A stretch of DNA of 64,000 nt from Thermococcus sp. P6 (lineage in GTDB: Archaea > Methanobacteriota_B > Thermococci > Thermococcales > Thermococcaceae): positions 62,001 to 126,000 of the forward strand of contig NZ_CP015104.1 of assembly GCF_002214525.1 (NCBI RefSeq), written 5' to 3'. Made by a program: the position numbers and the translations under genes. This document shows positions 6,045 through 40,501 of this stretch, in pieces. Positions within the stretch are counted from its first letter, which is position 1. Each line of letters opens with the position of its first letter. The notes beneath the pieces were generated by a model. It saw only the letters and a program-made list of their open reading frames with translations. It ran no database searches and had not been told where the DNA came from.

Positions 6045-9000
6045 ATGATCCTCGACGTTGATTACGTTACCGAAGATGGGAAGCCCGTCATAAGAATATT
6101 CAGGAAGGAGAACGGGGAGTTCAGGATAGACTACGACAGGGACTTTGAACCCTACATATACGCCCTTGTAGAGGATGATTCTGCTGTGGATGAGGTTAAA
6201 AGCATAACCGCCGAGAGGCACGGAAAGATGGTGGGGATAAAGCGCGTCGAGAAGGTCCGGCGTAAGTTTCTGGGCAGACCGATAGAGGTGTGGAAGCTTG
6301 TTTTTGAGCATCCGCAGGACGTTCCGGCAATTAGAGACATCATAAGGAACCATCCCGCCGTTAGGGAGATATACGAGTACGACATACCCTTCGCAAAGCG
6401 CTACCTCATAGACAAGGGCCTCGTGCCCATGGAAGGGAACGAAGAGCTCAGAATGATGGCCTTCGACATAGAGACGCTCTACCATGAGGGAGATGAATTC
6501 GGAGAAGGCGAGATTTTGATGATAAGCTACGCCGATGAGAGCGGCGCGAGGGTGATTACGTGGAAGAAGATCGATCTCCCCTACGTTGAGGTCGTCTCCA
6601 CCGAAAAGGAGATGATCAAACGCTTCCTTCGGCTGGTTAAGGAGAAGGATCCGGACGTTCTCGTGACCTACAACGGCGACAACTTCGACTTCGCCTACAT
6701 AAAAAAACGCGCCGAGAAGCTCGGGTTGAAGTTCATCCTCGGAAGGGACAGTAGCGAACCAAAAATTCAGAGGATGGGCGATCGCTTCGCCGTCAAGGTC
6801 AAGGGCAGGATACACTTCGACCTCTACCCGGTCATAAGGCGCACCCTGAACCTGCCAACATACACGCTCGAGGCCGTCTACGAGGCCATCTTTGGAAAGC
6901 CTAAGGAGAAGGTCTATGCGGAGGAGATAGCGACGGCGTGGGAAACCGGGGAGGGGCTCGAGAGGGTCGCCCGGTACTCCATGGAGGACGCAAAGACCAC
7001 ATACGAGCTCGGAAGGGAGTTCTTCCCGATGGAGGTGGAACTGGCGAAGCTCGTAGGGCAGAGCGTTTGGGACGTGTCGAGGTCGAGCACGGGCAACCTC
7101 GTGGAGTGGTACCTCCTGAGGGAGGCTTACGAGAGGAACGAGCTCGCACCGAACAAGCCGGACGCTGAGGAATACAAAAAACGGTTGAGGAGCACCTATC
7201 TCGGCGGCTACGTCAAAGAACCCGAGAAGGGACTCTGGGAGGGCATAGCTTATTTAGATTTTAGATGTCATCCGGCCGATACAAAAGTTATTGTAAAAGG
7301 CCGTGGACCCGTTAACATAAGTGAGGTCAGGGAGGGGGACTATGTCCTTGGAATCAACGGGTGGCAGCGTGTTAAAAAAGTGTGGGAGTACGATTACAGG
7401 GGAGAGTTAATAAAAATCAACGGGCTCAGGTGCACTCCAAACCACAGGATACCTGTTGTTACTAAAAACGAGAGACAGACAAGGATAAGGGACAGCCTCG
7501 CCAGCTCCTTTTTGACCCACAGAGTTAAGGGACGGATAATCATGACTCCCCTCTTCCAAAGGGTGGGCGACCTTGAGTCCGCCAGCGTGGATGAAGAGGA
7601 GATCCTGAAGGGGGAACTCGTGGGCATACTGCTTGCGGAGGGAACGCTACTCAGAAAAGATGTTGAGTACTTTGACTCGTCGCGTGCCAAAAGACGTGTG
7701 TCCCACCAGTATCGGGTTGAAATAACGATTGGAGCCCATGAAAAGGAGTTCCTTGATAGGATTACCTACATTTTTGAGAAGCTCTTTGGGGTTACCCCCT
7801 CGGTCGTAAGGAAGGGAAAAACAAACGGGATAGCGATCCGGGTTGCAAAGAAGAGGGTTTACCTTGAAATTGAAAAACTGATGAACAACATTGAGAATCT
7901 GCATGCACCTTCAATCATCAGGGGCTTCTCAGAAGGCGATGGAACTGTTAACCGTGTTCGCAGAAGTGTCGTCATTAGCCAAGGGGGAGACAACAGATGG
8001 AAACTCGAGTTGATTTCAAAACTTCTGGATAAGCTCGGAATTCCCTACAGTACTTACGAGTATCAGTACACGGAGAATGGAAAGCGCCTCACAAGGCACA
8101 TACTTGAGATAACGGGCAGGGATGGCCTGATTCTCTTCCAGATTTTCGCCGGATTTATCAGCTCCCGCAAGAAAGAGATGCTCCGGGAGGCCATTCAGAA
8201 CAGGGAAATGAAGGGGCTCGAAAACAACTCTTTCTACAGGCTCAGCGACTTCGCTGTGGAGAAGGAGTACTATGAGGGCAAGGTTTACGACCTGACTCTT
8301 GAAGGCAGTCCTTACTACTTTGCCAACGGAGTACTGACTCACAACTCCCTTTACCCCTCCATAATCGTCACGCACAACGTTTCCCCCGATACGCTCGAAA
8401 GGGAGTGCAAGAACTATCACGTGGCCCCGGTCGTTGGCTATCGCTTCTGCGGGGACTTCAAGGGCTTCATCCCGAGCATACTGGAGGAGCTCATAGAGAC
8501 CCGACAGAGGGTTAAGAGGAAGATGAAGGCCACGATCGACCCCGTGGAGAGGAAGATGCTCGACTACAGGCAGAGGGCACTGAAGATTCTGGCGAACAGC
8601 TATTACGGCTACATGGGCTATCCAAAGGCGCGCTGGTATTCAAAGGAGTGCGCCGAGAGCGTCACGGCGTGGGGAAGGCACTACATAGAGACCACGATTA
8701 AAGAGGCGGAGGGATTCGGGTTCAAAGTGCTCTACGCGGATACGGATGGCTTTTTTGCAACGATACCCGGTGAAAAACCGGAGGTCATAAAGAAGAGGGC
8801 CCTGGAATTCCTGAAGCACATAAACAAAAAGCTCCCCGGAATGCTCGAGCTCGAGTACGAGGGCTTCTACATGAGGGGCTTCTTCGTCACCAAAAAGAAG
8901 TACGCCCTCATTGACGAGGAGGGGCACATAACCACGAGGGGCCTCGAGGTTGTGAGGCGCGACTGGAGCGAGATAGCGAAGGAAACTCAGGCCAAAGTTC

Positions 9001-9449
9001 TGGAGGCCATACTGAAGCACGGGGACGTTGAAGAGGCTGTAAGGATCGTCAGGGAGGTCACGGAAAAACTCAGTAAGTACGAAATTCCACCCGAGAAACT
9101 GGTAATCCACGAGCAAATAACGAGGGAACTGAAGGATTATAAGGCAACGGGACCCCACGTGGCCATAGCCAAACGCCTGGCCGAGAGGGGCGTGAAGATA
9201 CGTCCCGGGACGGTCATAAGCTACATCGTCCTCAGGGGTTCGGGAAGGATAGGGGACAGGGCGATCCCCTTCGAGGAGTTCGATCCGGTAAAACACAAAT
9301 ACGACGCGGATTACTACATTGAAAATCAGGTTCTGCCGGCCGTTGAAAGGATCCTCAGAGCCTTCGGCTACAGGAAGGAGGATCTGAGGTATCAGAAGAC
9401 GAGACAGGTCGGGCTGGGGGCGTGGCTCAAAAGGGGAAAGAAGGGTTAA
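6045..9449 (+). CDS. polB: Family B replicative/repair DNA polymerase precursor containing one intein
   Basis: 1134-residue precursor; removing a 360-residue intein leaves 774 residues, the size of KOD and Pfu polymerases. The N-terminal domain starts [19 protein letters not shown]. Proofreading exonuclease motifs are [10 protein letters not shown] (Exo I), [13 protein letters not shown] (Exo II) and [11 protein letters not shown] (Exo III). Polymerase motif A (DFR/SLYPSII) is interrupted by the intein; motif B is [13 protein letters not shown] and motif C is YADTDGFF, with both catalytic aspartates present. The thumb ends with [17 protein letters not shown]. The known KOD Pol-2 and Tli Pol-2 type intein sites (motif B/C) are empty. 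The gene ends 4 bases into the convergent HAD gene. Confidence 0.98.
7266..8345 (+). mobile_element. Intein with LAGLIDADG homing endonuclease in DNA polymerase (KOD Pol-1 type)
   Basis: Residues 408-767 of the precursor, exactly 360 residues, as in KOD Pol-1. It begins at Cys in [15 protein letters not shown] and ends [10 protein letters not shown]. Splicing blocks are complete: Cys1, [10 protein letters not shown] (TxxH), penultimate His, final Asn, and Ser as the +1 residue. Two dodecapeptide motifs are present, [11 protein letters not shown] and [12 protein letters not shown], each with an acidic residue in the catalytic position, so the endonuclease may be active. The DNA looks clearly more A/T-rich than the flanking exteins, consistent with acquisition by homing. 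Confidence 0.96.
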
Positions 9450-37423: not shown

Positions 37424-40400
37424 TCAGAGCACCCTGTAGAACCCGGCCCTCGGCTCGTATATCCGGGCATCACGCCTGAGGTCGCTCAGGAGCTTCTTTA
37501 TCTCGCTCTCCGAGCCGATGCCGGCCTGCTTGGCCGCCTCTATCACCTCATCCTCGGGGGCCCCGAACTCGCCCTCGCTCTCGAGTTTCTTTATGATGTC
37601 GATGATACGCTCTATCCTGTTTATCTTTCTGGAGCTCTTCCCCACCTCGAGTATGGAGACGTCAAGCGTTCCCTCCTCGTCAACGGCTATCTTCCCTATC
37701 ATCTCCTCGATTATTCCTATGGCGGCCCTGGCATCTTCTCTCTCCACGGTTTCGCTCAGCCTCATCCTCGCGTGCGCCTCGCTGAGCCTTATCAGGGCCT
37801 CGAGCTGTCTCGCCGTTATGGGGATCGGCTGAACCCCTTCCTCATCCCCGGATGTCCTGAAGCCCTTCCTCATCCTGACGTAGTACCTCTTCAGCTCTTC
37901 CATCGCTTCCCTGCTCATAACCGGGTGGATGTTCTTCCTCGCGTAGGCGATGTACTTCTTGAGCAGGTCGTAGGGTATCTTCGGCGTCACCACCTCGCTC
38001 TCTCCCCGCCTCACCCTGAGGATGTGCTCGGCTATGCTCGAATCGACCTTTTCATCGGGCTCGTCGAGGAGGAGGAAGATGAGGTCGAAACGGCTGAGCA
38101 ACGTTGGAGGCAGTTCAAGCTGCTCCGGGAGGGATTTATGGCGGTTAAAACGTCCGTATTTTGGATTCGCCGCCGCTATGACGGTTGTCCTTGCGTTGAG
38201 CGTTGCAGTTATGCCGGCCTTGGAGATGCTTATCGTCTGCTGCTCCAGAGCCTCGTGTATAGCACTCCTGTCCCTCTCGCTCATCTTGTCGAACTCGTCT
38301 ATGAGGGCGAAGCCGCCGTCAGCGAGAACCAGAACCCCCGCCTCCAGCACCCACGAGCCTGTAAACTCGTCCCTGACGGCTGCCGCGGTCAAACCGGCGG
38401 CCGAACTGCTCTTGCCGCTCGTGTAAATCGCCCTTGGTGCCAGGTTGGCCACGTAACGGAGGATCTGGCTGTTGTGAACGAACACGTCGTTGGCTATGAA
38501 GTTGTGGTGCTCCGGAATCTGCAGGTCGTAAACCCACGGGCGTTCCGGTTCGTATTCCTCCTTCTCCACAACCCTATCCCAGAAGATGTCCGATTCAGCG
38601 AGGAGTTTGAGGAATCCAAGTTCGGGGGTTTTCTTTTCTCCAAGCCTTTCCACGATCCTTTTGAGTTCCCTTTTGCCCGGTGCCTTCCCTTTTACCCCCA
38701 CCTTCTCGAGGAGTTCTTCAACCCCCGGGATGAGGTCCTCCAGCTCGTTCCCTGGAGCCGGAGGTAGTCTTTCGAGGACTTCGGCTCTGGAAAGCCTGCG
38801 GAACCCTATCCTCTCCATGAACAGGATCGCATCCTCTCCGGATATGGAAAGCCGGTAGGAGGTTTTTCCGCCGGTTTTAATCTCCCGGATCCGGGACTTC
38901 ACGCCGAAGCGCAGGAGCAGGTGCATTATTCCTTTGAGGGTTTCTACACCGTCTTCCACCACGATACTTCCTTCCCTCAGGCTTCCCCTTTCCTCGAAGT
39001 AGCCCCTCAGGAACTCCCTCAGTTCCTCCCTTCCGGCGACGAAGAGCTCCGGGGGAAGCTCCTCCCCTTTAAGCGGCGCGGAAGGTGTGCTGGAGTACCT
39101 TCCGGATTTACCCTCTACCGGCAGGGTTCCGGGCACGGCTATGAAGTCCCCCACCTTCAGTTCCCGGGCCTTTCTCGTCTTGAAGCTGCCCCCTTCAAGC
39201 GTGAAGAAGGGATGGGTCGGCGTTACCCTGATCTCCCTCCCGCTCAGGGTTCTTATCAGGTACATCCTCTCCGGGGCCGTCCTCTTCCACGCCAGATCCG
39301 CCCTGACCTTCCTGACCTTCAGCGTCCGGGCGTCGAGGGCGTAAAGCTCGAGGTCAAGGGGTGCGTAGAAGCCGTCATCGACCTTCCCGAGGTTCCCCCT
39401 TCTCCTCGCCCTCTCAACCGCTTCCTCGACAATTTCACCGATCTTTCTCAGGCTTCCATCCGCGAGGAGGACCCTTGTGTCATGGTCAACGCACTTGGCA
39501 ACGCCGGGGTCCCCGACGAGCAGGACGTGGCTCTCGCCCCTCAGCCTCGTGCCATCCGGCAGGACCCTCTGGACGCCGCCGAAGAGCGCCAGAGCGATGC
39601 CCTTCTTGACGGTCTTATGGCCCCAGATGGCCGGGGCTATGGAATCCACTATGGCATCCACTATGTCCTTTCTCCGGGAAAGCTCCCGGATCTTCTGCTC
39701 GTCCTCCGGTGATATCTCGAGCTCCTCTATCTCCTTGCTGATCTGTTCTATGTGGTTTACCTCCAGAACCTTCCGGAAGATGGGCCTCTTGTCCTTCTGC
39801 TCGAGGATGACCCTGAGGATCCCGGTGACCAGAACCCTGTCTCCCGGAAGGGCCGTGTCAACGAGGTCATCGAGGAGTATCGCATCGACAAAACGTGGCA
39901 TCTGGCCCCCTTTGAGGCTCTCCGGCCTGTCCTGAAGGCGGAAGCTCTGAAAGTTTAGGAACCCGCTCTTCTCGACGTCGAGGATTATGTTCCTCGAACC
40001 GCAGGAATCGCATTTGGTCGGCCGAACTATGTTCTCGTAGGGCCTCTGGAGTCTCACCATCTCGTTACCGCAGTCCCTGCATACGAAGACGGCCCTCTCG
40101 ACGAAGGGCTTCACCTCGCTCACGCGGGTGATTATGCCCTCAACCTGAACGAACCTGTTTATGTGCTCGCTCCCCAGTTCCTTCACGAGGAGAGTCCGGG
40201 GAAGGTTGTAGAACCTTGCGTGAACCTTGAACTCCTCCTCCCTCAGGAGGGGTGGTTCGCGGAGGATTATCTGGATCGCATCCTCGGCCGCGAGTATGCT
40301 CTCCTCGGGGTTCTTAAGGAGCTCCCCGGCCAGCTCCGGATCGAAGGAGTTGAGGTGCGTCCAGTCAATCGTCAGGGAGCGCTTCGGAGTCAGGGTGAGC

Positions 40401-40501
40401 AGGTCCCTGAGCCTGTTAAGGTAAACCTCGTCCCCGTCGTCGCTAACGTATTCCCTCAGAAAGCGGGCGAAACGCTCTATCATCTCCTCCCTTTCCATCA
40501 T
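37424..40501 (-). CDS. mcm: MCM replicative helicase precursor with one intein
   Basis: 1025-residue precursor; excision of 341 residues leaves 684, normal for Thermococcales MCM. N-terminal OB region with a C4 zinc motif ([11 protein letters not shown] ... CDSCGSRNI), then AAA+ core: Walker A GDPGVAK/SQ split by the intein, Walker B LIDEFDKM, sensor 1 [10 protein letters not shown], arginine finger LLSRFDLIF, and a C-terminal winged helix ([27 protein letters not shown]). It unwinds DNA at the fork as a hexamer with GINS and Cdc45/GAN. Its ATG overlaps the gins23 stop by 4 bases, as in the TK1619-TK1620 pair. Confidence 0.97.
38471..39493 (-). mobile_element. Intein in MCM Walker A motif, endonuclease apparently decayed
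   Basis: Residues 337-677, 341 residues, inserted in GDPGVAK/SQ. It starts with Cys ([15 protein letters not shown]), has block [10 protein letters not shown] with TxxH, and ends VFVHN followed by Ser, so splicing residues are complete. I find no first LAGLIDADG motif; the only candidate, [11 protein letters not shown], has Arg where the catalytic Asp of GDG should be. Base composition looks like the host gene, unlike the polB intein, which suggests long residence. Confidence 0.93.

Follow-up and report, generated by a model that had tools for sequence, protein, structure and literature searches.

The window analysed here, a stretch of 64,000 nucleotides from the genome of Thermococcus sp. 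P6, carries an MCM helicase gene that is interrupted by a single intein (Table 1). The 341 codons of the intein contain no stop and lie within the 1025-residue MCM frame. The insertion point, GDPGVAK|S, falls directly behind the Walker A lysine, the position that passages of a study on haloarchaeal MCM inteins name MCM-a (PMC10643990), or the CDC21-1 site. In the genome (1,522,818 bases in one contig) the MCM family matches this gene in two stretches and, weakly but above the cut-off, a second frame of 318 residues; there seems to be no full MCM gene besides the one in the window. Further inteins were not found in it. Because the insertion breaks up the ATP-binding loop of what looks like the sole full MCM, activity of the helicase should depend on splicing, as an earlier note on this DNA had claimed.

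Table 1. Parts of the MCM gene and its intein, with positions in the window.
Feature	Position	Strand	Details
MCM helicase gene	37424..40501	minus	1025 aa, single intein inside; Pfam and own-genome search
N-extein	39494..40501	minus	MCM 1-336; last residues GDPGVAK (Walker A through Lys)
MCM-a (CDC21-1 site) intein	38471..39493	minus	341 aa, MCM residues 337-677
Splicing domain, N part	39131..39493	minus	intein 1-121
Cys1 codon	39491-39493	minus
TPTH block	39212-39223	minus	intein 91-94
Linker	39053..39130	minus	intein 122-147; scar of the 97-aa loss incl. LAGLIDADG motif 1; contains the model's lowest-confidence stretch
Surviving LAGLIDADG half	38801..39052	minus	intein 148-231; predicted half-LAGLIDADG helices and strands
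LAGLIDADG motif 2	38984..39010	minus	LRGYFEERG
Arg codon in motif 2	38987-38989	minus	Glu in most relatives
Accessory-domain remnant	38597..38800	minus	intein 232-299; without the 21-aa HTH core; short helices predicted
Splicing domain, C part	38471..38596	minus	intein 300-341
C-terminal His-Asn	38471-38476	minus	intein 340-341
C-extein	37424..38470	minus	MCM 678-1025 and stop; first residues SQILRYV
+1 Ser of C-extein	38468-38470	minus

Splicing residues and losses in the endonuclease

The residues of a class-1 intein are in place, with Cys1 (in CVD), TPTH at residues 91-94, HN at 340-341 and the +1 Ser of the C-extein; the boundaries and intact splicing residues given in the earlier note are thereby confirmed. 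Pfam recognises Intein_splicing (8.1e-27) and a single LAGLIDADG_3 stretch at residues 157-230 (3.6e-10), and the same scan of the intein found no HTH. Among solved structures the best sequence matches are 6rpq (PhoCDC21-1, 2.2e-69) and 6rpp (PabCDC21-1, 4.5e-58), and identity to 50 other inteins of the MCM-a site amounts to 62-80% over 158-173 aligned residues. Judged by these matches, the splicing domain is kin to the known MCM-a inteins, and the intein looks like a splicing-competent member of class 1.

What has been lost was read against 28 complete orthologous full-length inteins (473-482 aa). Six gaps of 97, 3, 8, 1, 21 and 2 residues appear in the alignment with the 473-aa form, a loss of 132 residues. 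The largest takes away LAGLIDADG motif 1 together with its half-domain, and the 21-residue gap the core of the helix-turn-helix; the three full-length relatives scanned with Pfam each show two LAGLIDADG_3 stretches and an HTH_3. Early overlapping matches had left it possible that the surviving motif was motif 1, but the alignments show that motif 2 stays. This motif reads LRGYFEERG, and LRGYFDAEG in most relatives. All 28 complete full-length relatives have Glu at position 8 of motif 1; in motif 2 the same position is Glu in 26 and Lys in two, and Arg in this intein. Position 7 of motif 2 is Ala in 27 of the 28 and Val in the other one, and Glu here. The alignment with MCM-a inteins, a check that the earlier note had proposed, thus agrees with its claim of a missing first motif and shows the first endonuclease half deleted along with the HTH core and small loops. 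Its claim that Arg stands in place of a catalytic Asp needs correction: the acidic residue is indeed lost, but it was a Glu. The two full-length MCM-a inteins with Lys at this position (L065, L192) are probably nuclease-dead through that point change.

The intein is therefore not a two-motif LAGLIDADG nuclease, having no motif 1 and an Arg in motif 2, and it lacks the accessory HTH domain of full-length inteins, of which the 21-residue core is missing. Neither is it a mini-intein, a form without endonuclease domain, as one LAGLIDADG_3 stretch and a predicted half fold remain. Homing nuclease activity is very unlikely on the evidence of these losses.

AlphaFold2 returned a model with a mean pLDDT of 91.2 and a pTM of 0.90 from a 22-sequence alignment that includes full-length relatives, which favours a folded half. 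The model is weakest around residues 131-140 and shows a helix at the motif, the strands and helices of a half-LAGLIDADG domain and then three helices. Compared to solved structures, it best matches PI-TkoII (2cw7; Z 30.9, 314 residues), the TliVMA intein (Z 30.9, 307 residues) and PhoCDC21-1 (Z 29.1, 167 residues; 6rpq, 71% identity, rmsd 1.1); structure matches were also listed with Foldseek. The remnant is thus confidently predicted to form a half-LAGLIDADG fold.

Substitution pattern of the remnant

Mean identity to the 28 full-length inteins falls from 82.7% (N-extein) through 73.8% (splicing domain) to 41.9% (remnant); the corresponding means among the 378 full-length pairs are 81.7, 77.9 and 71.2%. 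Amino-acid trees built from 20 sequences give this intein a branch of 0.107, 0.236 and 1.78 substitutions per site for the three parts, respectively. For selection we rely on a joint codon model with shared branch lengths, custom-written for this analysis, rather than on a model with separate branch lengths. For this one sequence, on one branch with saturated synonymous sites, the joint model estimates a dN/dS of 0.303 in the remnant, 0.103 in the background and 0.059 in the splicing domain. Its log-likelihood is -9723.5 with a free remnant rate, -9729.5 with the remnant at the background rate and -9734.0 with a neutral remnant, the free rate being better by 6.1 and 10.6, respectively. With separate branch lengths the remnant dN/dS is 0.22 on a saturated branch, 1.9 log units better than background and 8.5 better than neutral. 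A dN/dS between 0.1 and 1 would likewise result if the remnant had been functional in the early part of the branch and had drifted later.

With 14 tips as foreground, the ratio of remnant to splicing domain is highest in this intein (5.1, versus 0.23-3.2 in the 13 others). Higher absolute values for the remnant occur in two tips with very short branches, L062 (0.55) and L177 (0.46), in which dN/dS of the splicing domain is elevated equally or more; values from control tips with such branches (L054, L062, L066, L177) are unstable. The rate of the remnant is raised but stays below neutral, and the remnant may not simply drift.

The kind of residue retained points in the same direction. Counting columns that reach a conservation of 85% or more among the 28 relatives and are still present in this intein, 22 of 30 hydrophobic positions, all nine Gly/Pro positions and 12 of 37 other polar positions are kept (hydrophobic versus polar, Fisher p 0.0013). 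A neutral simulation started from L050 and run to the same total retention gives p 0.0019 for this contrast. Other thresholds and start sequences give p 0.0007-0.035 for the whole remnant and p 0.0155-0.13 for the LAGLIDADG half alone, where the loosest threshold accounts for values of 0.095-0.13. Three out of four full-length relatives submitted to the same test retain polar positions more often than hydrophobic ones; in L193, the fourth, 23/32 hydrophobic, 25/39 polar and 5/9 Gly/Pro positions are retained. Net charge over the same columns is +3 in this intein versus +7 to +14 in the 28 relatives. What is left of the endonuclease seems constrained to keep a fold.

Base composition and other inteins of the genome

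The earlier note described the composition as host-like. This is mostly borne out: the splicing domain has a GC3 of 0.76-0.77 beside 0.80 and 0.78 in the two exteins, and the remnant a lower one (0.66-0.67). The gap to the host is -0.038 for the splicing domain and -0.134 for the part between, both the smallest among the 13 inteins with an N-extein GC3 of at least 0.70 (full-length inteins and this one). Over the 28 full-length relatives the gaps range from -0.227 to +0.054 for the splicing domain and from -0.283 to +0.026 for the part between, and some relatives in low-GC3 hosts have smaller gaps than this intein. The composition fits long residence.

Family searches of the same genome yielded inteins in three other genes. 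GC3 of intein and exteins is 0.59 versus 0.74 in PolB, 0.590 versus 0.660 in a class II ribonucleotide reductase-like gene and 0.671 versus 0.746 in a radical-SAM-like gene, the latter two genes being named by eye. A genome-wide degradation of homing machinery was considered and rejected, as all three inteins show, by eye, two LAGLIDADG-type motifs with an acidic residue. Among them, the PolB intein has 360 aa and lies at 7266-8345 (plus strand) in the frame 6045-9449. The radical-SAM-like intein (L074, frame from 1396, plus strand) apparently begins with the Cys that closes a CxxxCxxC motif, which the +1 Cys rebuilds on splicing; this iron-sulfur site may also need splicing.

The MCM-a site in related genomes

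We surveyed 94 genomes of the archaeal family, including that of Thermococcus sp. P6, and could assess the site in 88; it was unassessable in six (G017, G032, G063, G070, G077, G109). It is empty in 32 of the 88. Complete full-length inteins of 473-482 aa occupy it in 28 genomes and fragments of such inteins in three (G016, G083, G092). Complete minis of 185 aa number 17, with two more cut by a contig end (G089, G112), and there is a single mini each of 168 and 164 aa. Intein length and the PDB match are the grounds on which G064 and G066 are treated as P. abyssi-like and P. horikoshii-like, respectively. Three inteins have 254 aa (G102, G106, G107), and the 341-aa state is represented by the present intein only, which makes 94 genomes in all. 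No other of the 51 complete inteins in the alignment has exactly one LAGLIDADG half. The 254-aa inteins (L206, L207, L208) have lost both LAGLIDADG halves and retained the HTH segment, and Pfam found HTH_3 in the one that was scanned.

A further MCM intein is present in all 20 frames with a nuclease-less intein at site a (185, 168, 164 or 254 aa) and in 21 of 27 frames with a complete full-length one, counts that derive from open-frame lengths, omit five frames too short for an entire MCM (G087, G089, G106, G112, G115) and fragmentary full-length inteins (G016, G083, G092), and concern related species, so that little is drawn from them.

Some observations reach beyond this distribution. L068 and L173 have almost the same N-extein, but the intein of L173 clusters with that of L059, a pattern which suggests that the full-length intein has recently moved from one species to another. 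Full-length inteins straight after the P-loop Lys in an MCM-like context were also seen in hosts far from Thermococcales, comprising Asgard groups, Micrarchaeota, Diapherotrites, Methanosarcinales and others (L100-L106, L108, L111, L114, L115, L121, L122), so that both the site and its intein are either old or of wide distribution. Two related inteins that sit behind the P-loop Lys in what appear to be other ATPases (L133:3501-5021, GPSGSGK|S; L140:235-1539, GKRGSGK|S) hint that P-loop inteins cross between protein families. One scan of viral contigs gave two distant loci of 23-24% identity.

Discussion

A homing cycle in which the endonuclease decays after fixation has been described (portions of PMC6801210 and PMC8966425). 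Across the family the MCM-a site is full-length, mini, otherwise truncated or empty, and thus displays this cycle, of which the present intein is one frame, in the midst of degeneration. As a kind the intein is ordinary, standing late in a familiar parasitic life cycle, and not a new type of element. None of the literature matches listed (titles and abstract starts, with subscription papers mostly outside the coverage) concerned this intein or a half-LAGLIDADG MCM intein.

In this study, we propose that this MCM-a intein is a resident one, no longer capable of homing, in which the dead endonuclease persists as a folded spacer, a reading that we hold to be probable. The intact residues suggest that the intein excises itself from the MCM precursor via Cys1, Asn341 and Ser+1 and so restores the Walker A loop. 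Given the losses in the alignment, the homing endonuclease would be inactive, and its remaining LAGLIDADG half would be a folded monomer that spaces the two splicing subdomains. Substitution pattern and model are consistent with a selection that now concerns the fold and solubility of the precursor, perhaps also the orientation of the splicing subdomains, and no longer DNA cutting. Passages of PMC10643990 describe minis able to ride only with neighbouring inteins. Because this intein has neither a nuclease nor a neighbouring MCM intein to carry it, it would be resident, left to inheritance, chance recombination or exact deletion.

Stand-alone single-LAGLIDADG enzymes pair with themselves, and both Pfam and the model find one LAGLIDADG half here, as expected of a working single-motif nuclease. 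Position 7 of the motif, which would pack at the helix interface, is Glu in this intein, however; position 8 is Arg, the HTH core and loops are deleted and the charge is lowered, which makes such an enzyme extremely unlikely. More weight attaches to plain decay, with a roleless, drifting remnant in an intein that is turning into a mini-intein or about to be lost. No function of the remnant is required, since minis at the same site (17 of 185 aa, plus those of 168 and 164 aa) do without the nuclease part and the PhoVMA intein, in the available text of PMC8966425, splices without need of its dead nuclease; the elevated rate and the several small in-frame deletions agree with decay as well. Against it, a wholly neutral branch is worse by 10.6 (joint model) or 8.5 (separate lengths) log units, and hydrophobic, Gly and Pro positions are retained far above polar ones, unlike in the neutral simulation. 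We regard it as possible but doubtful. Of the neutral retention considered in the earlier note, free drift of the remnant is disfavoured, on one branch, while retention of the whole intein without benefit to the host stays the default.

The remnant might also be more than a spacer. As a switch responding to temperature, redox or DNA, it would time splicing of the MCM precursor and gate replication, as the ATP loop of apparently the only full MCM is interrupted. The fold-level pattern in the remnant speaks for such a role, as does the P-loop intein in RadA of the same order, whose splicing is, in the sections available, under the control of a loop left behind where the nuclease used to be (PMC5790916). 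Yet the site is empty in 32 of the 88 assessable genomes of the family and holds several forms elsewhere, and the frequent gain and loss of MCM-a inteins in haloarchaea has been argued, in part of PMC10643990, to count against a sweeping benefit. The regulatory role in replication that the earlier note suggested found no positive evidence; regulation by the intein is possible but unsupported, and a switch of this kind is quite improbable. Cases are known in which splicing has come to require the endonuclease scaffold (excerpts of PMC6801210 and PMC8966425). Co-option as a structural control module, in which the monomeric half positions the splicing subdomains and sets the timing of MCM activation, is nevertheless improbable.

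One site in one archaeal family presents the homing cycle side by side: full-length inteins with both acidic residues, others of full length in which a point change has altered motif 2, two distinct partial losses, minis and unoccupied sites. Being a mid-cycle state, this intein is a useful test case, and it makes testable the debated point whether dead endonuclease scaffolds persist through use in splicing or precursor folding.

Comparison with known inteins

Close relatives are the full-length MCM-a inteins of the family (473-482 aa), which are orthologous to this intein along what survives; unlike it, they have two LAGLIDADG halves, an HTH domain in the three scanned and both acidic residues in 26 of 28. 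The 254-aa inteins (G102, G106, G107) share the site and a partial deletion of the endonuclease, but have undergone the opposite loss. With the MCM-a / CDC21-1 inteins of P. abyssi and P. horikoshii (6RPP, 6RPQ) the intein has the insertion site and splicing domain in common, whereas those are minis of 164 and 168 aa without endonuclease (PMC6801210, from the text accessible) and this one still has a LAGLIDADG half and some of the accessory domain. The PhoVMA intein (VMA-b, 7QST) is likewise a P-loop intein behind the Walker A Lys that retains a dead LAGLIDADG domain (parts of PMC8966425 and PMC10643990); it differs in keeping both fold halves and in splicing without them (PMC8966425, same limits). 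Finally, the RadA inteins of P. horikoshii and T. sibiricus resemble the present case in their P-loop position, their order and a leftover at the former nuclease site; according to passages of PMC5790916, that leftover is a flexible loop with a demonstrated influence on splicing, whereas here it is a half-domain that is predicted to be folded.
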